Positions 6,147 through 29,581 of a stretch of 40,018 nucleotides of DNA are shown here, one piece after another. The notes below the pieces were generated by a model, which did no database searches, was not told the DNA's origin, and worked only from the letters and a program-made list of their open reading frames with translations. Made by a program: the position numbers and the translations under genes. Source of the stretch: Desulfovibrio sp. OttesenSCG-928-A18 (GTDB lineage: Bacteria > Desulfobacterota > Desulfovibrionia > Desulfovibrionales > Desulfovibrionaceae); contig JAJDJN010000004.1 of assembly GCA_030267245.1 (NCBI GenBank), forward strand, positions 1 through 40,018. The letters run 5' to 3'. Within the stretch, counting starts at the first letter, position 1. Each line of letters begins with the position of its first letter.

Positions 6147-6659
6147 TTACAGTTCTGAAAAGGTGGAGCTGATTACGATATTTGAACTAGTTTTTATTCC
6201 TGAAATGCCGGAGCTGTTTTCGATGCTGGAGACGGCCCCGGCATTCCAGATGCAGCCGGAAGCGCAGTCCCAAGCATAGTACCAGCTTGAAACGGTATCA
6301 AAGCGCATTTCCCACTGATACGGCGTTATGATGATGCCGTCATATTTTGCGGCGATGTCATTCCAACGAATATGCAGGCCATCAACGAAATCTTTGCGTA
6401 TGCCGTATCGCCTGGTAATGAGAGCGATGTCTTGTGGGCTGCTCGCCAGCAAGATTTGAGCCTCCGGCTGCAAGGTTACGTCAAAAGCATATACCAGCTT
6501 GTCCAGGCCGAACTCGTTTTCTTTGCACCAGTTCGGCCAGCTATCTTCGCAATCGTCGTCTGACAGCCACAGCCCTCGCGGCTTGAAGTGCGGTTTGTCG
6601 ATTTGCTGCACATCGCGCATCGTCAGCGTTGGCGTCGCGCTGTAGTGTCGAAGTTTCAT
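6147..6659 (-). CDS. Conserved phage hypothetical protein, 170 aa
   Basis: I recall similar phage proteins of unknown function that begin LRHYS and contain FKPRGLWLSDDDCEDSWPNW, a middle YDGIIITPYQWE and the tight motif WYYAWDCASGCIWN. That conserved Cys/Trp motif suggests an enzyme core, but none is known to me. The end is low-complexity (Ser, Ile, Asn-rich). A GAGGA site is 8 bases before the ATG. It is convergent with the HNH-like gene, and its start faces directly into the 21-23 bp repeat array, so that array may also control its transcription. Confidence 0.65.
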   Translation of the reverse strand: MKLRHYSATPTLTMRDVQQIDKPHFKPRGLWLSDDDCEDSWPNWCKENEFGLDKLVYAFDVTLQPEAQILLASSPQDIALITRRYGIRKDFVDGLHIRWNDIAAKYDGIIITPYQWEMRFDTVSSWYYAWDCASGCIWNAGAVSSIENSSGISGIKTSSNIVISSTFSEL

Positions 6660-6839
6660 AGCGTCGTCCTCATTTTTTTGGCGTCGAGACTCGAAAAAGT
6701 TGGCGTCGATCTTGCGTTTTTTGGCGTCGAGACTCGAAAAAGTTGGCGTCGATCTTGCGTTTTTTGGCGTCGAGTGTCAGGATTTTTGGCGTCGAGACTC
6801 GAAAAAGTTGGCGTCGAGAGTCGGTTTTTCCAGCGTCGA
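6660..6839. repeat. Iteron-like array, GGCGTCGA core every 21-23 bp
   Basis: The 8-bp core GGCGTCGA occurs at 6680, 6702, 6723, 6745, 6766, 6789 and 6810, with AGCGTCGA at 6832 and a weaker AGCGTCGT at 6660. Steps are 20-23 bp, close to two turns of the DNA helix. Bases 6680-6722 and 6723-6765 are identical. Cores are preceded by T runs, and alternate cores are followed by GAGACTCGAAAAAG, which holds the odd palindrome TCGAGACTCGA. The period of 43 bases is not a multiple of three, so this is not a coding repeat. It resembles plasmid and phage replication iterons or a partition site. Confidence 0.8.
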
Positions 6840-6883
6840 GGGCGCGGTTTTTGCCCTGCTTCCGGGCCGTTTTCGGGGCTGGG

Positions 6884-7017
6884 CCGGGCACGAGCCCGGA
6901 CAAATGCGCTTGGAGTAGCCGTCAGCGATCCCGGTGACGGACGTGCAAGACCTCATGCTGCTGTTAATAGTAGCAACGATTCAACGGCGCAAGGCTTGCT
7001 TTGCGCCGTTGAATCGT
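6884..7017. other. Cluster of three hairpins next to the iteron array
   Basis: Three inverted repeats follow the array: CCGGGC/GCCCGG at 6884-6899 with a 4-base loop; CCGTCA/TGACGG at 6919-6940; and a perfect 17-bp arm pair at 6976-6992 and 7001-7017 with an 8-base loop. None has a T tract that would make it an ordinary intrinsic terminator. The last lies 30 bases beyond the stop of the minus-strand operon and may end its RNA, or may form part of an origin. No protein-coding gene is supported from 6660 to 7047. Confidence 0.65.
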
Positions 7018-7047
7018 CCGGAAGCTGTCAGCCTCCCAAGAGCACAA

Positions 7048-7311
7048 TCAACCTATCTTGACCGTTGCCCAATTACAGACAAACTCATCCTCATCCACAA
7101 CACCAATTGAGTCGGTAAAAACGATCTTATGAGTTTGTACCCTGTATTCTGCGCCGCTGCCGTGGGTGCCGCTCAATGCGGCATTGCGCGCCGTAAGCTC
7201 GCCATAACATTGTAAGTCTTTGGCGTCACTATCGCTTATAAGCTCCTTGCAAAGTTCGAATTCGCCTGGTGCCATGTCGTCGTTTGAATAATAAATGCGC
7301 GTGATAAACAT
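7048..7311 (-). CDS. Hypothetical protein, 87 aa
   Basis: No family recognised. It is a small acidic protein (DSDAKD, VVDEDEF) without membrane segments. AAGGA lies before the ATG at 7311. It is the last gene of the minus-strand operon that includes the sliding clamp, and ends about 30 bases before the large 17-bp hairpin. Confidence 0.55.
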   Translation of the reverse strand: MFITRIYYSNDDMAPGEFELCKELISDSDAKDLQCYGELTARNAALSGTHGSGAEYRVQTHKIVFTDSIGVVDEDEFVCNWATVKIG

Positions 7312-7633: not shown

Positions 7634-8798
7634 AAGCGGCCTGGCTCTGGCGGTCTTCGGCCTCGCAATTGTCAGGATGCCAGCTTTGTAAGATTTTCAT
7701 TGGCATGATGACGTATACGCCGCGCCAGCCATCGCCGATAAAACACGGCCCGACATTGTTTGTAAATTCCAGCGTGACAAAATCGCCTGTTGTGTTTTCG
7801 ACGATCTGCAAAAGGTTTTTAAGCGGAAAAGCTATTATGTTTACATCGCCGTAAAACTCGCATGGCATTTCCGCACTCGCTCGCCTGTTATGTGTCATTA
7901 TTGAGCACTTGCAATCGTCAAAATTAAACACTATTGAACGATCATCATTCGTAACAGACGGCAATAGCGTTTTCAAAATTGCAACAAGCCCTGATCGCGA
8001 AAAAGTTACGCTGCTTTTCGCTTCGCGCTCTCGCCGCACCATAAAATTGCTTATGTCAATCGCATTGTATGGAGAAAAAACGGAAGTATAGACGGAATTT
8101 TGCGAGGCAGCGAAAAAGTGATCTTCCGTTGCAGAAAGGCGGATCGTCTTTTCTGACTTCGGGATTGCCCTTACCCATTGTGCGAACTGGTCCGGCCTTG
8201 GCAAAGTCGCATTGCCACCAGGCGAAAAAGCGCCGTATTGCTCACCTTGCAAAGTCAGACTGTAACATTGATGACCATTGAGGGCGGACATAAGCAAGCG
8301 TGAATCGGAAAAGTCAAGTTGTATGCATGACAAGCCATCATGCGAGGCATCGCCGGCACAAAATGCCATCCGTTCAGCGACGCGCAACAGTTCGGCGCGA
8401 TCAACCTCAAGGCAATTTTGAGGAAAACTTTCAACCTGCTTGCGCATGGGGCGCGATCCATGCTTGGCATTCTCAATCTTTTGCGTTGCCGCGCCTTGAA
8501 AAATGACATCATAGTCCGTTGAAAGCGTTGCATCTGCTACCTTGGCAGACTTTGCGCTTTTTGCGGCGCTGTCGAGCGCTTGATAATTCAAGCTCTCGAT
8601 CGACTCTGGTGCGGTCACTTCGGCAGGTACGCGCGAGACAATGCGCGAGTCATCGTTTTCAGTCGTGATCAAAATTGAGTCTTTGGCGGCTTCAATGGTC
8701 ACGCAGTCATTGAGGTATGCCTTGCCCTTGAGATTGAGGGCGGGCTTGACGGATTGCAGCGCGTTGAAAAAATCGGCAGTGTTAAAAGTCGCTTGCAT
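7632..8798 (-). CDS. dnaN-like: Phage-encoded DNA polymerase III beta-like sliding clamp
   Basis: The 388-residue protein shows the overall pattern of a bacterial beta clamp. It starts QATFNTADFFNALQSVKPAL and has TIEAAKDSILITTEN typical of the first clamp domain, AERMAFCAGDASHDGLSCIQL in the second, and the ending VYVIMPMK, close to the usual 'vyvvMPmrl' at the clamp C-terminus. A short tail after it is extra. As a ring around DNA it would tether a polymerase. No clamp loader or polymerase gene is in this window, so it would have to use the host's or ones outside. The ATG at 8798 is chosen because GAAGGGAG precedes it and clamp homology begins there; a longer frame to 9011 runs through the upstream stem-loop. 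Confidence 0.8.
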   Translation of the reverse strand: MQATFNTADFFNALQSVKPALNLKGKAYLNDCVTIEAAKDSILITTENDDSRIVSRVPAEVTAPESIESLNYQALDSAAKSAKSAKVADATLSTDYDVIFQGAATQKIENAKHGSRPMRKQVESFPQNCLEVDRAELLRVAERMAFCAGDASHDGLSCIQLDFSDSRLLMSALNGHQCYSLTLQGEQYGAFSPGGNATLPRPDQFAQWVRAIPKSEKTIRLSATEDHFFAASQNSVYTSVFSPYNAIDISNFMVRREREAKSSVTFSRSGLVAILKTLLPSVTNDDRSIVFNFDDCKCSIMTHNRRASAEMPCEFYGDVNIIAFPLKNLLQIVENTTGDFVTLEFTNNVGPCFIGDGWRGVYVIMPMKILQSWHPDNCEAEDRQSQAA

Positions 8799-9561: not shown

Positions 9562-9912
9562 CTACCAGCTTGTAGAGCCTGGAGCCCAGCCCGCGATCTT
9601 GTTGACGGTAATTTCCGGGTTAATTTCCTTCAGCATCAATTCAAGCTCATAGGTCTTGCTGTAACCGTATCCGGTCAAATGGAAGTGGAAAGCCGGGTAC
9701 TTGTCACGCCGGGAAAAGACCTGATGCCGAAGTGTTGCGGCCTTCTTTTGTTCTCCGGGCTTTAATTCAGAAACTTCCACCACCGGCCATAAAATAGACA
9801 GCAGATCATTGCCCTGATTGACAAATTGGAGGTAGATAGTGAAGCGAGTATCAGACAAAGGCATGATGTACGCGTATTGCGCGGCCTTGATTTGTTCGAT
9901 TTGGGTACGCAT
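9562..9912 (-). CDS. Hypothetical protein, 116 aa
   Basis: No family recognised. The chosen ATG at 9912 (RTQIEQIKAAQYAY) has AAGGGAG 7-8 bases before it; a longer frame to 9945 would start inside that leader. The sequence has strands rich in Tyr/Phe (YAYIMPLSDTRFTIYLQF, FHFHLTGYGYSKTYELEL). The leader, with TCAAGGGAGAAA, is nearly the same as that of the 127-aa gene further upstream. Confidence 0.6.
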   Translation of the reverse strand: MRTQIEQIKAAQYAYIMPLSDTRFTIYLQFVNQGNDLLSILWPVVEVSELKPGEQKKAATLRHQVFSRRDKYPAFHFHLTGYGYSKTYELELMLKEINPEITVNKIAGWAPGSTSW

Positions 9913-10029
9913 GGTGATTTCTCCCTTGATTTTTTGGAGAGTCACGGCTACGCTTTGTTTCTCACTTCGCGGCGCTGCCGTGGCCCTCGTTATGATTGGA
10001 TTCGTTCGGTTGTGGCGGGGGTTTTATTT

Positions 10030-10413
10030 TTACGCGTCGGCGTCTGCCCTGATCCAGGCTTCAAAATCGTCAAGCAACGCCATTCCTTGTGCTGGCAAAT
10101 CCGAAAACTCATAATCTCCGTATCCGTTGCCGTAGAGATAAGCGTCCACAACTTCGCTGCCGTGCTCCCGGCGGGCGTCAGCAAGGCGAGTGTCCAAGGC
10201 TTGGTATTGGGCAACCATATCAAGCCACCAATCTACCGTCTCCCGGGTTGCAATGTGCATTTCCGCCTCGTCGTCATACCCGATGAGGCCGTTTTCAGGG
10301 GAGCCAAAGCCGCCGGCATTGCCGACAAAATCAGCTATCCAGTTTACGCCGGTGCGCAGATCAATGTAATTAAGGTCCACCACATCGCTTGTGCCTATGA
10401 TTTGTACTTGCAT
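10030..10413 (-). CDS. Hypothetical acidic protein, 127 aa
   Basis: An acidic protein rich in Asp, Tyr and Trp (GYGDYEFSDLPAQGMALLDDFEAWIRAD). No family recognised, and no membrane segment. TCAAGGGAGAAA precedes the ATG at 10413. The low pI and absence of enzymatic motifs would fit a DNA-mimic or inhibitor type of early protein, but that is speculation. It belongs to the minus-strand operon; a perfect 9-bp hairpin (10444-10485) lies in its leader. Confidence 0.55.
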   Translation of the reverse strand: MQVQIIGTSDVVDLNYIDLRTGVNWIADFVGNAGGFGSPENGLIGYDDEAEMHIATRETVDWWLDMVAQYQALDTRLADARREHGSEVVDAYLYGNGYGDYEFSDLPAQGMALLDDFEAWIRADADA

Positions 10414-10880: not shown

Positions 10881-11123
10881 TTAATCTATTTTGCGCGGCT
10901 CGTTACGTCTCTTTGCGGGCTTGGCCTGCAAGCGCTTAATGTCTGCCGGGGATAGCAGCCAAGTCTTGCCCACTTTCACGCAATCGGCCACTTCTTCACG
11001 CCCGGCATTACACCATAGTTGCAGAGTTCGCGGAGTCGCATAGCCAAGCAGCGCGGCGGCTTCCGTGATTGTCATGTAACCGGCGCGAATATATTCCGGC
11101 ATTGTTTTTGTGACTTCTTTCAT
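10881..11123 (-). CDS. Small helix-turn-helix DNA-binding protein (excisionase/MerR-like)
   Basis: The 80-residue protein has the layout of short HTH_17/excisionase-type proteins: MTITEAAALLGYATPRTLQLW, a turn, then VGKTWLLSPADIKRLQ, and a basic tail (KPAKRRNEPRKID). In phages this class directs excision or represses promoters; without an integrase in the window the role is open. The ATG at 11123 lies only 6 bases from a strong -10 box, so this start would be used on a nearly leaderless RNA; a second in-frame ATG at 11102 is an alternative. Confidence 0.7.
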   Translation of the reverse strand: MKEVTKTMPEYIRAGYMTITEAAALLGYATPRTLQLWCNAGREEVADCVKVGKTWLLSPADIKRLQAKPAKRRNEPRKID

Positions 11124-11129
11124 GTCCTG

Positions 11130-11159
11130 ATTATATCGCCCCATGCGGCATATCGTCAA
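11130..11159 (-). promoter_or_regulatory. Promoter of the HTH gene, likely leaderless transcript
   Basis: On the minus strand: TTGACG (11159-11154), an 18-base spacer, and a perfect TATAAT (11135-11130). The expected RNA start falls at about 11123, the A of the first ATG. Confidence 0.7.
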
Positions 11160-11180: not shown

Positions 11181-11209
11181 TTGATCTCTTATTCGTTTTC
11201 GACTAAATC
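11181..11209 (+). promoter_or_regulatory. rha promoter with operator in the spacer (dispersed palindrome copy 2)
   Basis: TTGATC (11181-11186), a 17-base spacer, then TAAATC (11204-11209). The element ATTCGTTTTCGACT (11191-11204) fills the spacer, the position where a bound repressor would compete with RNA polymerase. It is nearly the reverse complement of copies 1 and 3. Confidence 0.6.
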
Positions 11210-11241: not shown

Positions 11242-11952
11242 ATGAAAAACAATCAGCCTGTGCTTTCCTCGCTTTCTGTCGTCGGTGGCGTTCCCCGCGT
11301 TTCGTCGCTCGATGTGGCCCGGCATTTTGAAAAGGATCATGCCGATGTTCTTAAAGCAATCAGAAAAATTATTTCAGAGTGTCCACCGAATTTTAACGAA
11401 GGAAATTTTTCCGGCGTTGAATACTCGGATGCCAAGGGGGAAACGCGGCCCGCCTATGCCCTCACCCGTGACGGCTTTGCACTCCTGGCTATGGGCTTCA
11501 CCGGCAAGCGTGCCCTTGAATGGAAAATCAAATATATCGAAGCCTTCAACGCAATGGAAAAAGCTTTGATTGAACAGCATGTAGCACTAAGGCCCGCTCC
11601 AGCGTGCGCGATCATGGAAATGCTGCCGCCGCTTAAGCTGCACACGCGTCCTGGACAAGTCGCGCGCACAGCGACAATCAAAGAACGCGAAAGCCTGTAT
11701 GAGCCCGTCTGCGAATGGATAAAGTCTATGGACCGCCCTTGCGGCTCCGGCGGCTTTTTCCTGGGGCTGTCGATATGCGCCCACATGGCCGGCGTTGAGA
11801 GATTCTCGCAAATCCCCCAGCACGCTATAAAACCCCTTCATGCCTGGCTTGAAGAACGGATTGACGAATCGTACGCTCTGATTCAGGAACGCAGGAGGCA
11901 CGCTCGCGCCGCCCGGCTCGCTGCTATGCAGCCCGCAACCGCCATCTTGTGA
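11242..11952 (+). CDS. rha: Rha family phage regulatory protein
   Basis: The first ~115 residues match the Rha family: VSSLDVARHFEKDHADVLKAI, then RPAYALTRDGFALLAMGFTG and KRALEWKIKYIEAFNAME. Rha proteins interfere with growth or lysogeny choice in some lambdoid phages and are treated as regulators or antirepressors. The last part (about residues 150-215, RESLYEPVCEWIKSM...HMAGVERFSQIP...LHAWLEERI) is a different helical domain that also appears in the 100-aa protein at 12731 and the BRO protein at 13067. AAGGAG lies about 8 bases before the ATG at 11242. A GC hairpin terminator follows the gene. Confidence 0.85.
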   Translation: MKNNQPVLSSLSVVGGVPRVSSLDVARHFEKDHADVLKAIRKIISECPPNFNEGNFSGVEYSDAKGETRPAYALTRDGFALLAMGFTGKRALEWKIKYIEAFNAMEKALIEQHVALRPAPACAIMEMLPPLKLHTRPGQVARTATIKERESLYEPVCEWIKSMDRPCGSGGFFLGLSICAHMAGVERFSQIPQHAIKPLHAWLEERIDESYALIQERRRHARAARLAAMQPATAIL

Positions 11953-11985
11953 TAGTCTGACAACAAAAGCGACTGCGGGTCTAAT

Positions 11986-12019
11986 GCCCTGGACGGTTTC
12001 AAGCTGGCCAGGGCTTTTT
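11986..12019 (+). terminator. Intrinsic terminator after rha
   Basis: Arms GCCCTGG (11986-11992) and CCAGGGC (12008-12014) followed by TTTTT. It stands 34 bases after the rha stop codon. Confidence 0.8.
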
Positions 12020-12395
12020 GTGTGCCTGGAGCCTGGAGCAAGCCAAGCCGGCGGGGCATCGGTGGCGCCCCGATAGCGTCAAATCAATGACCTGCCCCTA
12101 ATTCGCTCACAATTGCCCGCAGATGCGCGAAAGTCGAAAGCGAATGCCAGGATGGCCGGAGGCGCGAGCGCTCCCCTGGCGGGCAGCCAGGTGGCAAGAA
12201 TGGGGGGGAGGGGGGATGTTTATCTCTAGGGGCTCTCGGGGGTGAACCGACGTCGGCCCTAAATTCACAGTAGGCCAAAATCACCTTGGCGTTACCAACT
12301 GAATTCATTTACTTAATTTTGCTAGGGTGCAAAAGTCCGTATACCTCCCATGCCCTTTGCACCCTCCGAACACGCGCCATCCCGAAGTAGACCAG
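12020..12395. other. Gene-free structured stretch between rha and the small minus-strand gene
   Basis: No protein reading frame here looks real. The stretch holds a GC hairpin (CGGGGC/GCCCCG near 12051-12072), copy 3 of the dispersed palindrome (12132-12145), long G and C runs, and a perfect 10-bp inverted repeat AGGGTGCAAA (12324-12333) / TTTGCACCCT (12356-12365). It may carry a small RNA or control sites. Confidence 0.4.
12132..12145. promoter_or_regulatory. Dispersed palindrome copy 3 (AGTCGAAAGCGAAT)
   Basis: Identical to copy 1 at 1498-1511. No gene start or obvious promoter stands next to it, which would suit a transcription-blocking site rather than a classical operator. Confidence 0.5.
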
Positions 12396-12566
12396 CTACC
12401 CCCCTTGCCCGGCTCCCACACGGCCACGTTGACCAGCCTTCAATGAATCAAGGACCACCAGGAGCCTGTAAACAATAGCGTTCTGGAGCTCTTTGTCGCC
12501 CATGTCGGCACTTTCCACAGCAGCCTCGATCAGGATGAGTTCCCGCACCATTTCTTCGTAAGACAT
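12396..12566 (-). CDS. Small hypothetical protein, 56 aa
   Basis: A short frame on the minus strand with a strong ribosome-binding site (AAAAGGAGAGAGT before the ATG at 12566). The product begins SYEEMVRELILIEAAVESA and continues QNAIVYRLLVVLDSLKAG, an amphipathic helical pattern, with a Gly/Arg tail. It is divergent from the 100-aa gene at 12731, and the AT-rich gap between them (12567-12730) would hold both promoters. A perfect 10-bp inverted repeat (12324-12365) lies past its stop and may end its RNA. No family recognised. Confidence 0.55.
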   Translation of the reverse strand: MSYEEMVRELILIEAAVESADMGDKELQNAIVYRLLVVLDSLKAGQRGRVGAGQGG

Positions 12567-12730
12567 ACTCTCTCCTTTTCTAGAGTTTTTCTATAATATA
12601 CTGTAATCACTACAACTATAGCGGCCATGTTTATAAATATCAACAAAAAAATTAAAATATTTTAATTTCAATTCGATTGCTAATGTCATATCCTATTCTT
12701 TTACGAATAAAAAAAGACAAGGGGTAGACC
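12567..12730. promoter_or_regulatory. AT-rich divergent control region with palindrome copy 4
   Basis: Between two divergent genes. It contains TGTAATCACTACA (12611-12623), the dispersed element ATTCTTTTACGAAT (12695-12708, one arm mismatch) and a weaker look-alike ATTCGATTGCTAAT (12671-12684). Exact promoter boxes are not clear. Confidence 0.5.
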
Positions 12731-13033
12731 ATGAAAAAGATTTCTTCCACAACACGCCTTACACTTTCATCTCTTTTCCCGGAGAGCGCACCGAGGCTCA
12801 TTAGCGGACTCTGCATGAGTGGCCGTGTATCCACGGAGGGCGAGCGCCAAGAGCTTCTTGAGCCTCTGATTCTGTGGTGGCGCGGTGTCTCTCCTGAACA
12901 TGACCCCATGGATCTTGCGCTCCTGAAAGCTGCGACGGCCAGGGCGGCCGGTGTCGATGATTTTTCGCGCATCAAGGGGGCAGACGTGCCGCTTGTCAAA
13001 ACTTGGCTTCACGAGATTGTGGCGTCTTTGTAG
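12731..13033 (+). CDS. Hypothetical regulator-like protein, 100 aa
   Basis: The last 60 residues (RQELLEPLILWW...ARAAGVDDFSRIKG...LVKTWLHEIV) align with the C-terminal domains of the Rha protein and the BRO protein on either side. The conserved points are the leading ERxEL, a Trp helix, A-x-x-A-G-V, then IP/IK and W-L-x-E. Here the N-terminal DNA-binding or Rha/BRO part is missing and replaced by about 40 other residues. It might compete with the full-length proteins for the same partner. AAGGGG lies about 7 bases before the ATG. Function unknown. Confidence 0.65.
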   Translation: MKKISSTTRLTLSSLFPESAPRLISGLCMSGRVSTEGERQELLEPLILWWRGVSPEHDPMDLALLKAATARAAGVDDFSRIKGADVPLVKTWLHEIVASL

Positions 13034-13066
13034 CAACTTCTAACTCAAAACCGAAGGAGTTTTACC

Positions 13067-13771
13067 ATGACCAAGTTTCCCGCTCTCACTTTTCAGTCCA
13101 CCACTTTTGATATCGTTGATCTTGATGGGCAGCCGTGGCTACAGGCTCCTCAAATTGCAGCGGCCTTGGGATACTCGCGCCCTGACGAAATCTCGCGCCT
13201 CTACCAGCGAAATGCCGACGAGTTTACTGAAAGCATGACGCAAACTATTGAAATCGTCGCAGAACACCACTTTGACACGCCAAATGGCCTTAGCAACGGG
13301 CGAACCCGCATCTTCTCCCTGCGCGGCTGCCACCTCCTTGCCATGTTCGCCCGCACGCCGGTCGCCAAAGACTTCCGTAAGTGGGCGCTCGACATCCTGG
13401 AGAGAGAAGCGCAACAGGCTCAACGCCATCCGCTTCCCGCGAACGTCCACCCCGCGAGCCTGCTCCCAGCTTTCTTTCAGGAACTCCCCACCCTCCCGAA
13501 AGGCAACCGGGCGTCCAGCAGTCGAGAGCGCCGCGAGCTCTTTATAGCCATGCATAACTGGATAAAAACGTGGGGAGGGCACAGCACTGAAGATTACACC
13601 TTCGCTCAGGCCATATGTGCCAGGCTCGCCGGGGTCAATGAGTATAAGCTTATACCCTTTGCCTCACTTCCCGCACTCGTTAAATGGCTGGAAGAGCACA
13701 CGAAAGAAGCCTCGACCATTGAGGAGCACGCGCTGCCGGACGCCGGCGACACGCTTGGGGTCGGCTCCTAA
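13067..13771 (+). CDS. BRO-N domain antirepressor-like protein
   Basis: Residues 1-115 form a BRO-N domain (FQSTTFDIVDLDGQPWLQAPQIAAALGY, then SLRGCHLLAMFARTPVAKDFRKW), as found in phage antirepressors and baculovirus BRO proteins. The rest carries the C-terminal helical domain shared with rha and the 100-aa gene (RRELFIAMHNWIKTW...CARLAGVNEYKLIP...LVKWLEEHT). CGAAGGAG precedes the ATG. A 114-bp block (13304-13417) is about 95% identical to the BRO gene at 26783-27754 on the other strand. The likely role is to switch immunity by binding a repressor or operator; the repressor is not identified. Confidence 0.8.
   Translation: MTKFPALTFQSTTFDIVDLDGQPWLQAPQIAAALGYSRPDEISRLYQRNADEFTESMTQTIEIVAEHHFDTPNGLSNGRTRIFSLRGCHLLAMFARTPVAKDFRKWALDILEREAQQAQRHPLPANVHPASLLPAFFQELPTLPKGNRASSSRERRELFIAMHNWIKTWGGHSTEDYTFAQAICARLAGVNEYKLIPFASLPALVKWLEEHTKEASTIEEHALPDAGDTLGVGS
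13304..13417. repeat. 114-bp inverted repeat, copy in the first BRO gene
   Basis: Pairs with 27404-27517 in opposite orientation, with about six differences by eye. It encodes the BRO-N core around the conserved RIFSLRGCH...LAMFARTPVAKDFRKW. Confidence 0.8.
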
Positions 13772-14262: not shown

Positions 14263-14278
14263 TTGACGAGGCGTGATT

Positions 14279-14292
14279 ATTCGTTTACGAAT
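14279..14292. promoter_or_regulatory. Dispersed palindrome copy 5 (ATTCGTTTACGAAT)
   Basis: Perfect 5-bp arms. A TTGACG (14263-14268) lies just upstream, so a repressor bound here could cover the -10 area of a promoter driving the lysis cassette. Confidence 0.6.
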
Positions 14293-14364
14293 ATGAAAAC
14301 GCCACCGGAATCGCAAGAGCGAAGCGTGCAAGCGAGGGTGGGAAAAAGCGTGGAGAACGCGGGC

Positions 14365-14952
14365 ATGGCATTATCTTTTTCCGACATTGCGCAGGCAGCG
14401 CGGGGGCTCGGCCTGGACCCGTGCATCATCAAGGCCGTGGTCGAGGTAGAGTCTGGCGGCAGCGGCTTTTTGCCCGATGGCAGAACGAAGATTCTGTTCG
14501 AGGGGCATGTTTTCTGGAAAGAGCTTCAGAGGCGTGGCATAGACCCCGCGCCCCTGGCTTCCAAGTATCCCAACGTCATTTACCCCAAGTGGGATCGCTC
14601 GCGGTACAAGGGCGGTGCCGCCGAATGGGAACGCCTGCATATCGCCGCCTCGGTGAACAAGGATGCCGCGCTGTGTTCCGCATCTTGGGGGCTGTTCCAA
14701 ATCATGGGCTTCAATCACCGCGCCTGCGGCTTTGGCTCCGTGCAGGCCTTTGTGGACGCGCAGGGGGAAAGCGAGGCGAAGCAGCTTGAGTCTTTTTGCG
14801 CTTTTATGCGGTCCGAGGGGTTGGTCCTTTTTCTCACGGGGTTGGATTGGGCGGGTTTTGCCCGCCGGTACAACGGCCCGGGCTATGCCGCAAACCAGTA
14901 CGACGTGAAGATGCGCAAGGCCTATGAGCGCTGCAAGGCAGCAGGAGTCTAG
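14365..14952 (+). CDS. Phage endolysin, N-acetylmuramidase family
   Basis: The protein matches the N-acetylmuramidase family (PF11860, DUF3380): an N-terminal SDIAQAARGLGLDPCIIKAVVEVESGGSGF with the likely catalytic Glu in VEVESGG, then LFEGHVFW, SWGLFQIMGFNHRACGF and the end WAGFARRYNGPGYAANQYDVKM. It would cut peptidoglycan glycan strands. No signal peptide is seen, so export would rely on a holin. The ATG at 14365 (GGAG about 8 bases before it) fits the family start; earlier in-frame starts at 14293 (no ribosome site) and a TTG at 14263 are possible. It opens a lysis cassette with spanins and a holin-like gene. Confidence 0.85.
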   Translation: MALSFSDIAQAARGLGLDPCIIKAVVEVESGGSGFLPDGRTKILFEGHVFWKELQRRGIDPAPLASKYPNVIYPKWDRSRYKGGAAEWERLHIAASVNKDAALCSASWGLFQIMGFNHRACGFGSVQAFVDAQGESEAKQLESFCAFMRSEGLVLFLTGLDWAGFARRYNGPGYAANQYDVKMRKAYERCKAAGV

Positions 14953-15570: not shown

Positions 15571-15959
15571 CCATTGTGCCTGACCCGGGGGATAGCAGCG
15601 TGTGGAGCCAGATAGTCGCCATTGTTTGCCGCATGGCTCTGGCTTTTGTGCTCTGGCTTGAGTATGCGCTGCCGCTGATACTCCCCGCCGGCGTGGCCGC
15701 ATGGCTCTACGGACGCCATTTTGGATACCGAGGGGCCGCTTTGAGGCTTTTTGTCGCCACAGGCATGTTCGTGGCCGTGGTTGGCACGCCGGCAACGCTG
15801 ACGTTGTTCGGCCTGGACGTTGACCTCTGGAAAACAGTCGTTTGCTGCGCCCTCTCTGTCTTTTGCTGGGAAGGCGTTCGCTGGCTCAAGGCTGCTATCA
15901 TGCGGCGCCTGGGAATAGACCGCAGGAAAGACACGACACAAGGCGGGGATGACGAGTGA
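15567..15959 (+). CDS. Holin-like membrane protein, 130 aa
   Basis: Three hydrophobic segments are visible (around IVCRMALAFVLWLEYALPLILPAG, LFVATGMFVAVVG and VVCCALSVFCWEGV), ending in a charged tail (RRKDTTQGGDDE). This is the form of a class I holin and fits the lysis cassette, but the family was not recognised, so the call is positional. The ATG overlaps the stop of the lipoprotein gene. A role in membrane-pore timing for the muramidase is inferred. Confidence 0.6.
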   Translation: MTIVPDPGDSSVWSQIVAIVCRMALAFVLWLEYALPLILPAGVAAWLYGRHFGYRGAALRLFVATGMFVAVVGTPATLTLFGLDVDLWKTVVCCALSVFCWEGVRWLKAAIMRRLGIDRRKDTTQGGDDE

Positions 15960-16321
15960 CGGCAGCCAGCAAAAAAGATCGCGACAGGCTGTACGTCGCG
16001 GTGGCCGGGCTTGCGAAGCGGGCCAATGTATATCCCGGCACAATCTGGAGCGGTCTAAAAAAGCACCTCGGCGTTGTTCGCATGAGCGATATAACGGCTG
16101 CACACATTCCCGCAGCCCTGAGCTACCTCAGTGGCCTTACGGAAAATATTTCAGGGAATTTGTCGGACACGGACTTTTTGAAAAAGATGCGCGCAGCGGA
16201 GTCAGAGGACGTGAAACTGCGCTTGGTCAAGATGGCTATTGCGCGATTTCATTTGGCCCGCCCCGAATTGGTCCAGGAATTGTGCGCGGCCATTGATGAA
16301 GCCACTAGCGGCAAGGAGTAG
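15956..16321 (+). CDS. ORF6C-like regulatory domain protein, 121 aa
   Basis: The first half (KDRDRLYVAVAGLAKRANV...IWSGLKKHLGVVRMSDI..AHIPAALSYL) resembles the ORF6C domain that follows Rha, BRO or Ant domains in phage antirepressors: a Tyr-rich helix, then LKKHLGV and a final helix. Here it stands alone, without an N-terminal DNA-binding part. The start is GTG at 15956, overlapping the holin-like gene. It may be a split regulator part or a small structural adaptor. Confidence in the family is moderate. Confidence 0.6.
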   Translation: MTAASKKDRDRLYVAVAGLAKRANVYPGTIWSGLKKHLGVVRMSDITAAHIPAALSYLSGLTENISGNLSDTDFLKKMRAAESEDVKLRLVKMAIARFHLARPELVQELCAAIDEATSGKE

Positions 16322-17848: not shown

Positions 17849-19540
17849 ATGACGCAAGAATTCACCAAATATCCGCATACGGCAGACGGCCACCAGTACG
17901 CGCTTGACGCGGAACGCGGCGCTGTTGACGTGTGCAGATGGGTGAAGCTCCAGGCGAAAAAGCATCTTGAAGACCTCGACCGACAAAGCGACCCGGCATT
18001 TCCATTTTATTTCGATCCCAAGAAGGCGAATGAAATTGGGCATTTTGCATCGCTCATGATGCACGTCAAGGGTAAGTGGGCGCAGACTCCGACTCCTGTT
18101 CTTTTTGAGCCCTGGCAGGAATTTGCTTTCGGCATCCCGCTGGGATGGATGAAGAAAGATGGAGGCAAGCGCCGCTACCGGAACATGTTCGACCTCATTC
18201 CAAGGAAAAACGGGAAGAGTGTTTCAGCAGCCATTTTAGGCAACTACATGCTGACGGCAGACGGCGAGCCCGGTGCGGAAGTGTACTGCGGCGCGTCCAA
18301 AGAAAAGCAGGCGTGGGAGGTGTTCGGACCGGCACGGCTGATGGCGCTGAACAACCCGTTTTACAGGGAATATTACGGCCTGCATGTCGGTGCCAAGAAC
18401 ATCGCCGTTTTGAACACGGCCTCGAAATTTGAGCCGGTGATCGGCAACCCCGGCGACGGCTCCAGCCCGCATTGCGGCATTGCTGACGAAGAGCACGAGC
18501 ACCTTGATTCGCGCCTGGTGGACACGTTTCAGACCGGCATGGGGGCGCGGGAGCAGCCGTTGCTTCTTGAAATCAGCACCGCCGGCACGAACCTCGCCGG
18601 ACCTTGCTACGCCAAGCAGCAGCTTGTCCAGAAGGTGCTCGAAGGAACGCTCGAAAACGATGAGTTGTGGGGGCTGATCTACACCATCGACCCCGAAGAC
18701 GACTGGACGGATTTTGAGGTCTGGCGCAAGGCGAACCCGAATTTCGGCGTGTCCGTGTTCGAGGACTTTTTGCTGGCCCGCTACCGCGAGGCCATGCAGA
18801 GCCCGGACAAACAGAACATCAACCTCTGCAAACACCTGAATGTCTGGTCGAATGCCGCCGTTGGCTGGATAAACATGGTGAAGTGGGAGGAATGCGCTGA
18901 CAAGAACTTGCTCATGGACCGTTTCAAGGGCTGCCAGTGCTGGGTCGGCGTGGACCTCGCCAGCAAGGTTGACCTCACGGCCATGATGTTCCTGTTCCGG
19001 CGCGAGGGCGAATATTATCTGTTCGGCAAATACTATCTGCCCGAAGACACGGTGCGGCTGCCGGAAAACTCTCATTATCAGCGCTGGGCAGCCGAAGGAT
19101 ACCTGACTGTCACGCCCGGGGCCCGGACTGATTACCGCTACCTCGAAGAAGACCTTGCGGAGATTGCGAAAGCGTTCTCAGTGCGCGAACTCGCTTATGA
19201 CCAGCGCGAGGCCGAATATCTGATGCAGAACATCCGCGAGTGGGCGTCGTTCCCCTGCGTGGAAGTTCCGCAGTCTCCGACGTTCATTTCCGAACCCATG
19301 AAAGAGTTTGAGGCCCTGTACCTCTCCGGGAAGCTGCACCACGACGGCAACCCCATGCTGCGCTGGCAGGCGTCAAACGTCATTCGCAAAAGCAGCAAAG
19401 CGAAATCTTACTATCCGGCCAAAGAGCGCGAGGCGAACAAAATTGACGGCATCGTGGCCGCGATCATGGCGCTGTCGCGAGCGATGACGTTTGAAGACCC
19501 GGCCAGCGTCTACGAGTCGCGCGGCCTCATTGTCCTTTAG
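17849..19540 (+). CDS. terL: Terminase large subunit
   Basis: The 563-residue protein has the ATPase-nuclease layout of large terminases (Terminase_1 type). The Walker A-like PRKNGKS is at about residue 118, and the Walker B-like ADEEHEHLDS at about 212. The RuvC-like nuclease part starts with CWVGVDLASKVDLTAMM near residue 364 and later has acidic positions in ELAYDQREAEYL and the family end EANKIDGIVAAIMAL. It cuts and pumps DNA into the head. The ATG at 17849 lacks a visible Shine-Dalgarno sequence and follows copy 6 of the dispersed palindrome. Confidence 0.93.
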   Translation: MTQEFTKYPHTADGHQYALDAERGAVDVCRWVKLQAKKHLEDLDRQSDPAFPFYFDPKKANEIGHFASLMMHVKGKWAQTPTPVLFEPWQEFAFGIPLGWMKKDGGKRRYRNMFDLIPRKNGKSVSAAILGNYMLTADGEPGAEVYCGASKEKQAWEVFGPARLMALNNPFYREYYGLHVGAKNIAVLNTASKFEPVIGNPGDGSSPHCGIADEEHEHLDSRLVDTFQTGMGAREQPLLLEISTAGTNLAGPCYAKQQLVQKVLEGTLENDELWGLIYTIDPEDDWTDFEVWRKANPNFGVSVFEDFLLARYREAMQSPDKQNINLCKHLNVWSNAAVGWINMVKWEECADKNLLMDRFKGCQCWVGVDLASKVDLTAMMFLFRREGEYYLFGKYYLPEDTVRLPENSHYQRWAAEGYLTVTPGARTDYRYLEEDLAEIAKAFSVRELAYDQREAEYLMQNIREWASFPCVEVPQSPTFISEPMKEFEALYLSGKLHHDGNPMLRWQASNVIRKSSKAKSYYPAKEREANKIDGIVAAIMALSRAMTFEDPASVYESRGLIVL

Positions 19541-26777: not shown

Positions 26778-26791
26778 ATTCGTTAACGAAT
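26778..26791. promoter_or_regulatory. Dispersed palindrome copy 7 (ATTCGTTAACGAAT)
   Basis: Perfect over all 14 bases. It overlaps the stop codon of the inverted antirepressor and lies right after the terminator, not at a promoter. Confidence 0.6.
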
Positions 26792-27754
26792 GAGCCGTTC
26801 AATGCGGTTGATGTTTCTCAGCAGCAGCATTTGCATTGCGTTTTCAAGGGCTGGATAGCCCATGTTCGCGCCAGGTATGGTGGTTTCCAGTATGGTCAGG
26901 TCGTCGCGTATGCGCTCCAGGGCGCGGGTCATCGAGCCTTGCGCTGCGCGGTTTTTGGCAGGCGCGGGGGCCTGCGGTTCGGGGGCGGGAGGCAGTTGTT
27001 TCATTTTTTTCCGATCAGGTTTCGGCACGACGAGTGCAAGCGGGCCGTTTTTGGGGAGCACGTAGACGCCGCGAGATGTTGACCGCCCCTCCGCTTCGGG
27101 GAATTTGAGGTTGTAGCGGGCGTAGCCGCAGCCGAACATCCTCAGAAGCCTGGAGATGTAGCCGTCTGCCCAATCATCGGCTTCCGGCTTGCGCTGCACC
27201 AGCCATTCCCTGAAATGGTCGGCAAAGAAGCACGTTTTGATCCTGTTGCCATGGGTCATGAACGGGGTGCGGGCGCGGCAGGCGGCAATGTCGTCGGTGC
27301 TTGGCGGGTAGGCTTCCAGGTAGTCGGTAACGTCCGTCCAGAGCAGGGTGCGCGGCAGTCCGGCGATGGGTTCATCGTCAGCAATGGCCGCTTGGGGGCG
27401 CGGCTGTTGCGCTTCTCTCTCCAGGATGTCGAGCACCCACTTACGGAAGTCTTTGGCGACCGGCGTGCGGGCGAACATGGCGAGAGCGTGGCAGCCGCGC
27501 AGAGAGAAGATGCGGGTTTCCTGCGGCCCGCCAGGCGTCGGCAGCGTGACCACGGCGGTCATTGAGTCGGTGAACTCGTCGGCGTGGCGGTCGAAGAGGT
27601 TTCGGATTGATCTGCCTCCATAGGTAGGATCAAATTGACCTTCCCTTTGACTATACCCCAAAGCCTCTGCGATTTGTGGGATTTTGACCCAGGGCTGCCC
27701 GTCACGATCAATGACATCAAAAGCGGTGGATTGGAAAGCGAGAACCGTTTGCAT
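26783..27754 (-). CDS. Second BRO-N antirepressor, inverted within the tail operon
   Basis: Residues 1-120 form a BRO-N domain very like the one at 13067 (FQSTAFDVIDRDGQPWVKIPQIAEALGY, SLRGCHALAMFARTPVAKDF). The rest is different: a linker, then a domain with WTDVTDYLEAYPPSTDDIAAC, HFREWLVQRKPEADDWADGY and RGVYVLPKNGPLALVV, basic and probably DNA- or protein-binding, and a helical tail. The ATG at 27754 has GGAGG 6 bases before it, but that site lies inside a stem (27761-27828). It stands on the minus strand within plus-strand tail genes, as morons do. It may act as a second immunity switch. Confidence 0.8.
   Translation of the reverse strand: MQTVLAFQSTAFDVIDRDGQPWVKIPQIAEALGYSQREGQFDPTYGGRSIRNLFDRHADEFTDSMTAVVTLPTPGGPQETRIFSLRGCHALAMFARTPVAKDFRKWVLDILEREAQQPRPQAAIADDEPIAGLPRTLLWTDVTDYLEAYPPSTDDIAACRARTPFMTHGNRIKTCFFADHFREWLVQRKPEADDWADGYISRLLRMFGCGYARYNLKFPEAEGRSTSRGVYVLPKNGPLALVVPKPDRKKMKQLPPAPEPQAPAPAKNRAAQGSMTRALERIRDDLTILETTIPGANMGYPALENAMQMLLLRNINRIERLIR
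27404..27517. repeat. 114-bp inverted repeat, copy in the second BRO gene
   Basis: Opposite-orientation partner of 13304-13417. Recombination between the two would invert the 14 kb between them or swap antirepressor C-termini. Confidence 0.8.
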
Positions 27755-27760
27755 GAAAAC

Positions 27761-27828
27761 CTCCGAAGAACTTCTCAATTGGCATTCGCGAAATGCAAAA
27801 TGCCGGGTGTTGAGAACGACCTTCGGAG
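27761..27828 (-). promoter_or_regulatory. Leader stem-loop covering the antirepressor ribosome-binding site
   Basis: Three nested perfect arm pairs: CTCCGAAG/CTTCGGAG (27761-27768, 27821-27828), TCTCAA/TTGAGA (27773-27778, 27810-27815) and GGCATT/AATGCC (27781-27786, 27799-27804). In the minus-strand RNA, GGAG of the ribosome-binding site is part of the last outer arm, six bases from the ATG. Confidence 0.7.
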
Positions 27829-28085: not shown

Positions 28086-28928
28086 ATGTTCAAGCTTTTG
28101 AAAAAAATACTTTCAAGAGGTGCCCGCACAAGGGGCACCCATAACTGTTTTGGCGGTAGAACTTTTGACGTTGATTCTCCAGAAGCCCAACGGACCATTA
28201 GAGCCTTCTCTCCAAGGCCTCTTGCAGATACGGCAGAGGATGTCGAACTTCATTCCGACCGCTACGGATATGACTATTCCCCGCCCTCCAATGATGCATG
28301 TAAATTTTTAAAGAGAAGTTTGGTGCCTATCTTTCCTGCATCAGGATATGGATTTTATCGAGAACGGCAAAGTGGGTGGTTTAGAATCAGAGGCGGATGG
28401 TTTGAAAACGTTGATGGAAGCGACAGGAACAATGAGGCATCGAATGTTCGCGTGGGAGATTTTTTGTATTTCTTTTGGGAAAAAGATAACGATAGCGACC
28501 AACACGCGGTCGCCGTGTTTAGGCTCCCCAAAAATCGGGGTCATTTCAAAGAGAATAACCAGATAGGCTATGTGCCAAGAGACAAGAGCGAAAGGATACT
28601 GGAAATTTTCAACTCAGGACACAGGGTGCTTGCAGAGGTTAGAAGGAAATATGCGCAAGGGGATGGGGGCATTAAAATAATTGTAACAACATATCGTTTT
28701 GAGGAGAGGGGCGATAATGTAGTATTTAGAATCACGCCAAAAGATGACTTGGCGATACGCTTGTTACGAAGCAAGGAGATCAGACGTCAGGCATTTGAGA
28801 ATTTAGGATTGGCCGGCTTGTTAAATTATGAACGGTTAAAAGCGTCTTCTGATAAAGAAATTCTCTCTATAGAAGGCGTTGGCAAAAAGACTTTGTCTAT
28901 TCTAAGGGGGCTTAGGGAGCCGCGTTAG
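28086..28928 (+). CDS. HIRAN-like and helix-hairpin-helix protein (accessory gene)
   Basis: A 280-aa accessory protein. About residues 110-210 resemble a HIRAN domain: RVGDFLYFFWEKDNDSDQHAVAVFR, then NNQIGYVPRDKSERILEIFNSGHRVLAEV. HIRAN domains bind DNA ends or damaged DNA in helicases such as HLTF. The C-terminus (LLNYERLKASSDKEILSIEG followed by VGKKTLSILRGL) looks like a helix-hairpin-helix DNA-binding unit. The N-terminal third is not recognised. The gene is clearly AT-richer than the tail genes around it, with its own leader and palindrome copy 8, typical of a moron. A role in DNA repair, exclusion of other phages or anti-defence is possible; none is shown. Confidence 0.65.
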   Translation: MFKLLKKILSRGARTRGTHNCFGGRTFDVDSPEAQRTIRAFSPRPLADTAEDVELHSDRYGYDYSPPSNDACKFLKRSLVPIFPASGYGFYRERQSGWFRIRGGWFENVDGSDRNNEASNVRVGDFLYFFWEKDNDSDQHAVAVFRLPKNRGHFKENNQIGYVPRDKSERILEIFNSGHRVLAEVRRKYAQGDGGIKIIVTTYRFEERGDNVVFRITPKDDLAIRLLRSKEIRRQAFENLGLAGLLNYERLKASSDKEILSIEGVGKKTLSILRGLREPR

Positions 28929-29041
28929 CCGGATTCCCCCCCCTTGGCTTGTCTACTGAGCTTTGTCTTCGCCCACATGATGCAAGATTCCTCGCCACGC
29001 CGCGTCAGCGAATTGCCTACGAGTTAATGGAGGGAACGACC

Positions 29042-29581
29042 GTGACCAACTGTGTAAAGTGCGGTGCCAGCATGAGGCTATTCGGAAAAAATCAACCCTC
29101 AGACGAGTTGGCCAACGAAAGACTGAGAAGTCAGGGGTACGACATCGAATATGGTATGTGTCGTGCTTGCGCTGAAGTTGTCTACGGGCAAATCAAAGCT
29201 GGCGAGATGGCTCCCGATGAAGCAAAAGTTGCCGAGGAGTATAAACAAGACGCGGTACCAAGTGTTAATGTGTACACCATTTGCCCTCAATATGTGGACT
29301 TTGCGTACATCGGCATCGTCTCTTCCCATGTTGCCCTCGGTACTGGCCTAATCAGCCACGCTCTATCCTCTTTAACTGACTTTTTTGGTCAGGAGTCGAG
29401 CACATACAGCGATAAGTTACAGGCGGCCGAGGGAGCCTGCCTCGCTAAGTTGAAAATCCGTGCGCATGAAATGGGGGCTGATATGGTTATTGGGATGCAG
29501 ACTACATACACCGAACTGACGAGTGGTCACGGCATGCTGTTGGTCTGCATGGCAGGAACGGCGGTAAAGCAAAAGCAATAG
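29042..29581 (+). CDS. Zinc-ribbon plus YbjQ/UPF0145-like protein (accessory gene)
   Basis: The N-terminus has CVKCGASM and, 30-odd residues later, CRACAEVV, a possible zinc ribbon. The second half (YIGIVSSHVALGTGLISHAL, SDKLQAAEGACLAKLKIRAHEM, GADMVIGMQTTY, then LLVCMAGTAV) follows the YbjQ/UPF0145 fold, a small pentameric family of unclear function. GTG at 29042 is chosen because GGAGGG lies 7 bases before it and the ribbon begins at once; a TTG-started longer frame from 28949 is possible. Second gene of the moron pair. Confidence 0.7.
   Translation: MTNCVKCGASMRLFGKNQPSDELANERLRSQGYDIEYGMCRACAEVVYGQIKAGEMAPDEAKVAEEYKQDAVPSVNVYTICPQYVDFAYIGIVSSHVALGTGLISHALSSLTDFFGQESSTYSDKLQAAEGACLAKLKIRAHEMGADMVIGMQTTYTELTSGHGMLLVCMAGTAVKQKQ

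Follow-up and report, generated by a model that had tools for sequence, protein, structure and literature searches.

Among phage regulators, proteins of the Rha, BRO and KilA type are very common, and their mechanism is largely unknown. The locus described here raises the question of why three neighbouring regulators of one prophage, which begin with different N-termini, should end in the same short domain, and what the smallest of them, made of little else, might do. The prophage is contained in a window of 40,018 nucleotides (the whole stretch of DNA that was analysed) at the start of contig C253 of Desulfovibrio sp. OttesenSCG-928-A18, whose genome is incomplete (66% complete). The features on which the argument turns are collected in Table 1.

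Table 1. Features of the regulator locus and its surroundings in the window
Feature	Position	Strand	Remarks
Operator-like palindrome TATTCGTTTTCGACTA, 2 mismatches	11190-11205	.	Upstream of rha
rha gene, 236 aa	11242-11952	+	N-terminal Phage_pRha head, C-terminal shared domain
Shared domain in Rha	11659-11871	+	Profile placement, pairwise shuffles
Probable intrinsic terminator after rha	11986-12019	+	GCCCTGG...CCAGGGC TTTTT
Operator-like palindrome TATTCTTTTACGAATA, 1 mismatch	12694-12709	.	Upstream of the 100-aa gene
100-aa gene	12731-13033	+	Shared domain almost alone, plus N-terminal stretch of ~30 aa
Shared domain in the 100-aa protein	12821-13027	+	Profile placement
bro gene, 234 aa	13067-13771	+	N-terminal Bro-N head, C-terminal shared domain
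Shared domain in BRO	13502-13711	+	Profile placement
Muramidase gene	14263-14952		Prophage marker
121-aa ORF, further stand-alone ORF6C-like domain of the wider family	15956-16321	+	HMM, PHROGs
Likely large terminase	17849-19540		Sequence

All three open reading frames were present in the frames previously described. The head of Rha belongs to Phage_pRha, with 103 bits against PF09669 (E 1.3e-29, curated cut-off 29.9) and 94.9 bits against TIGR02681 (E 2.9e-27, curated cut-off 45.95), and the head of BRO belongs to the BRO family (PF02498, E 5.9e-12, 46.5 bits, curated cut-off 25.6); the 100-aa protein had no match in Pfam, PHROGs or NCBIfam. A ribosome-binding site, AAGGAG, precedes the ATG of rha at 11242. 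The 100-aa gene looks coding as well, since it has a ribosome-binding site of its own (AAGGGG) and a codon-position G+C (0.60/0.49/0.58) near that of rha (0.61/0.45/0.58). It is followed after 33 bp by the start of bro, with which it likely forms one operon, and this spacing, together with the putative terminator behind rha (a 51 nt fold at -20.5 kcal/mol), indicates that the three genes probably make up two transcription units. We considered whether the 780-bp gap ahead of the 100-aa gene might hold a decayed head and rejected this, because its frames are full of stops and no remnant was visible by eye. On the minus strand, a 56-aa ORF (12396-12566) with a good ribosome-binding site (AAAGGAG) and no NCBIfam match runs divergently from the 100-aa gene, and a promoter-like site at 12643-12615 belongs to it. 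No Rfam elements were found in the window.

The C-termini of Rha, the 100-aa protein and BRO align over ~65 residues with pairwise BLOSUM62 scores of 68, 91 and 89, which none of the 2000 shuffled controls made for each pair reached (mean about 26, never above 59). Identity among the three domains is ~30%, and all of them agree in 13 columns (R, ER, L, W, A, AGV, I, WL, E). A profile of the shared domain places it in all three proteins, and when the BRO tail was searched against the whole genome it retrieved the Rha tail (E 2e-5) and the 100-aa protein (E 1e-3), with nothing further below E 0.45. These results bear out the preliminary description, which had proposed a C-terminal domain common to the three neighbours and carried almost alone by the 100-aa protein; the short N-terminus of the latter aligns with the linker of BRO. 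A second BRO gene of the window, at 26783-27778 on the minus strand within the late region, has a different C-terminus, and its protein gave no match to the shared-domain profile.

While the preliminary description had assigned the domain to no named family, we find that it is a divergent ORF6C-like tail, judged on sequence profiles, and too divergent for direct recognition. The shared domain had no direct match in Pfam, PHROGs or NCBIfam, and none of the three tails matched ORF6C (PF10552, cut-off 22 bits), for which reason we call the tail ORF6C-like and not ORF6C. When the profile of the three window tails was compared with that of 42 Rha and BRO tails from relatives and viral contigs, the probability was 94% and the score 36.5, which none of 100 column-shuffled controls equalled (mean 8.9, maximum 15.3). 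Against the closest subfamily alone the score was 34.1, compared with at most 14.3 for natural helical controls. In one-way HMM searches with the relatives' tails the window tails were not significant, and the evidence for the family relation is therefore the profile-profile result. Members of the relatives' tail family match Pfam ORF6C in the same profile region, several of them above the cut-off, and also match the antirepressor PHROGs 245 and 2127. The Rha and BRO tails of relatives follow the pattern 'ADRRPLxxLVxxW...V..hFgV..v.eL....i.dAi.WVQ.kID', and the viral BRO tails 'TPEQQxxI...V......IY..LK..F.VAKYDQLP'.

The window tails thus resemble the C-terminal parts of ORF6C and of PHROGs 245 and 2127 in standing behind Bro-N or Rha heads and in a collinear helical pattern of ~60 residues with a '.V..y..I' core, a relation that runs through the tails of the relatives. 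They differ in scoring below any Pfam or PHROG cut-off, in having their own Trp-helix/AGV/WL.E signature and in occurring almost alone in the 100-aa protein. A tree, from a short alignment and with long branches, put the three window tails in one group (99/94), surrounded by a mixture of Rha and BRO tails. Neither IMG/VR nor GTDB contigs nor 348 genomes of the order yielded a close relative of the window-type domain; we regard their matches at E 0.016-0.08 as chance. Some Rha proteins of relatives (L087, L090, L096, L097, L098, L106 and L109) carry two tandem Trp-containing ORF6C-like domains.

Structure prediction agrees with a common domain. AlphaFold2 modelled the 100-aa protein with helices at residues 36-53, 62-72 and 83-99 (pLDDT ~90 over residues 31-100 save one loop) and the BRO tail with helices at 156-168, 174-187 and 198-221 (pLDDT about 92). 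The two domain models agree in a small three-helix bundle, although the underlying alignments share sequences and the predictions are not fully independent.

That the ends of these regulators are exchangeable, as had been suggested from the window, is also seen in relatives, which carry the same kind of tail on Rha and on Bro-N heads. We compared 57 Rha and 57 BRO C-termini from the host's family, taking BLAST E <= 1e-3 as a shared tail. Rha-BRO pairs lying within 30 kb of each other shared their C-terminus in 6/11 cases, against 2/31 of the other same-genome pairs and 112/3207 of the pairs from different genomes, counts that include the window pair itself and pairs that are not fully independent (near pairs versus different genomes, Fisher p 8.5e-7; shuffled genome labels, p 0.0002). 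Unrelated viral contigs show the same tendency: five BRO loci had a neighbour with the same tail within 6 kb, and the four of these five that were typed combined KilA-N, AntA or Bro-N heads with P22_AR_C tails. P22_AR_C (PF10548) is likewise a tail common to neighbouring regulators, but it is a different domain from the window tails, which had no Pfam match to it and an hhalign probability at noise level (0.7%). That Rha, Bro-N and KilA modules are shuffled is already known (PMC6145125, citing Iyer et al. 2002). What is new here is that tail sharing is concentrated within single prophages, of which no description was found in the searchable literature.

The 100-aa protein is also not the only stand-alone tail of its genome. 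The 121-aa ORF, which the preliminary description had missed, matched the HMM of the relatives' tails at E 2.8e-4 before its inclusion in the profile, and matched the antirepressor PHROGs phrog_2127 (E 1.4e-5) and phrog_245 (E 1.5e-5). On a second prophage-like contig (L211), a BRO protein with the tail (7670-8572, minus strand) and a 126-aa protein that carries the tail alone (9830-10210, minus strand) are 1.3 kb apart. Stand-alone versions are rare in relatives: among 199 genomes of the host's family, all tail matches outside the own genome fell in frames of 167-545 aa, in a search whose profile included the 100-aa and 121-aa proteins, so that their own matches arise by construction, and did not include the 126-aa protein.

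The reading that we favour, with a probability of about 0.6, is that these antirepressor-type regulators carry a matched partner-binding or pairing tail and that the 100-aa protein is a stand-alone version directed at the same target. The ORF6C-like three-helix bundle would be a probably protein-binding module that phages recombine onto different antirepressor heads. In Rha and BRO, the N-terminal heads would act on DNA, and the matched tails would bind one another or a single common partner, most likely a repressor. The 100-aa protein, a tail made almost alone and apparently from the BRO operon, would most likely act on this same partner, whether by competing with the full-length proteins or by serving as a small antirepressor itself. 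Gifsy prophages provide an established precedent for small repressor-binding antirepressors: GfoA, GftA and FsoA lack a DNA-binding head, act on phage repressors and are under LexA or phage repressor control (PMC3121763), and they offer a possible functional model for the 100-aa protein. Matched tails within a prophage, together with tails expressed on their own, offer a direct way to the binding partner of the tail, which would be one partner common to all proteins with the same tail; one tail may in this way tie several regulators to a single partner.

An alternative with some weight, although we consider it unlikely, is a purely mosaic history in which recombination swaps 3' halves between neighbouring antirepressor genes, the tail serves generally for folding or self-association, and the 100-aa gene is a remnant that lacks a head and has no function of its own. 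Domain shuffling of these modules is known, as mentioned above, and the matching of tails could stem from recombination between neighbours without any common partner. The 100-aa protein could be such a remnant, because stand-alone versions are rare in relatives, and the alignment of its N-terminus with the BRO linker is in line with this origin; yet further stand-alone forms occur in the same genome, the 100-aa gene has an intact frame, a base composition like that of coding DNA, a ribosome-binding site of its own and an upstream operator-like site, and in the domain of its product all 13 invariant residues persist at only ~30% identity, from which we infer that it has long been under selection.

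Comparison with known structures bears on what a protein-binding tail might contact. By sequence, no relative of solved structure was found, and Foldseek with the 100-aa model returned nothing at E <= 0.001 in BFVD or PDB. Structural matches were middling, including a TrmJ-type tail (Z 4.3-7.3) and KIX (Z 6.0), as is expected of a three-helix bundle. The 100-aa and BRO models both matched the Red-beta C-terminal domain in complex with an SSB peptide (PDB 8tfu, 8tg7; Z 5.1-5.7, rmsd 2.4-2.9) over nearly the whole length of that domain, and the 100-aa model also matched 80alpha Sak bound to the Stl repressor (8qe9; Z 4.8). Both are three-helix bundles comparable in size to the window domain, and both lie C-terminally in phage DNA-binding proteins. 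The tail of lambda Red-beta binds proteins (SSB, exonuclease) and not DNA (PMC8303780), and the C-terminal domain of 80alpha Sak binds the Stl2 repressor (PMC11846896). In hhalign, Red-beta tails reached 50% with the joint ORF6C-like family and 0.2-11% with its subfamilies, and the profiles are collinear, with a score of 22.9 against a shuffled maximum of 17.0. We take this weak collinear similarity as a suggestive lead to homology and no more; the antirepressor tail and the SSB-binding annealase tail possibly share an origin, but the Red-beta and Sak tails sit on recombinases, unlike the window tails, and the similarity is not significant in most comparisons.

A more far-reaching form of the favoured reading, which we regard as speculative and rather doubtful, would draw these threads together: regulators with unrelated heads would be kept on one matched tail within a prophage as a one-target network, the 100-aa and 121-aa proteins would be its competitors or minimal antirepressors, and the tail may share ancestry with the SSB-binding tail of annealases. 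Still less probable is that the tail mainly links its carriers to replication and recombination, binding an acidic SSB tail or a recombinase partner as the Red-beta and Sak domains do and so recruiting the heads of Rha and BRO to phage DNA that is being replicated. The matches of both models to the SSB-peptide-bound Red-beta domain, that of the 100-aa model to Sak and the profile score above all shuffles would fit such a role; Z values near 5, however, are common for three-helix bundles, the KIX and TrmJ tails score equally well or better, most subfamilies, and the window tails taken alone, show only noise-level profile similarity to Red-beta, and the SSB-contact lysines have no reliable mapping. 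Finally, a chance or low-complexity helix resemblance among the three C-termini can be dismissed as extremely improbable, for although the domain is short and its identity only about 30%, the pairwise scores lie outside all 2000 shuffles for every pair, the profile-profile match to the tails of relatives is independent of them and the predicted folds of the 100-aa and BRO domains are alike.

Returning to the favoured reading of a matched tail, the sites upstream of its genes suggest how these might be controlled. The palindrome TATTCGTNNACGAATA occurs at 11190, 12694, 14278, 17829, 26777 and 28040, with a weaker copy at 1497, and a wide score gap sets these six strong sites and the weaker one apart from all other positions in the window. 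When up to 3 mismatches are allowed, the window contains 8 sites, where 0.85 would be expected. The listed sites mostly lie just upstream of plus-strand genes, one overlapping the point where the muramidase gene likely starts and another standing 4 bases ahead of the likely terminase start. As with stoperators, several copies of one site are distributed over short intergenic stretches across the phage genome; stoperators, however, are asymmetric sites with a known elongation-stopping repressor, and TATTCGTNNACGAATA is a palindrome, so that we do not claim this class and describe the sites as resembling dispersed operators. The natural reading is that they are putative sites of a phage-specific regulator. 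A host LexA-type regulon is unlikely, because all genome sites at <=1 mismatch, in this incomplete genome, are confined to the prophage contig. The contig yielded no S24 or HTH_3 repressor; an HTH protein encoded at 10881-11159 is one candidate binder of the sites. Elsewhere in the window, the DNA at 6588-7061 looks tandemly repetitive, its ORF translations repeating FLASRLEKVGV..., and two genes with HIRAN and YbjQ domains (28086-29581), possibly cargo, lie amid late genes with an operator-like site ahead of them.
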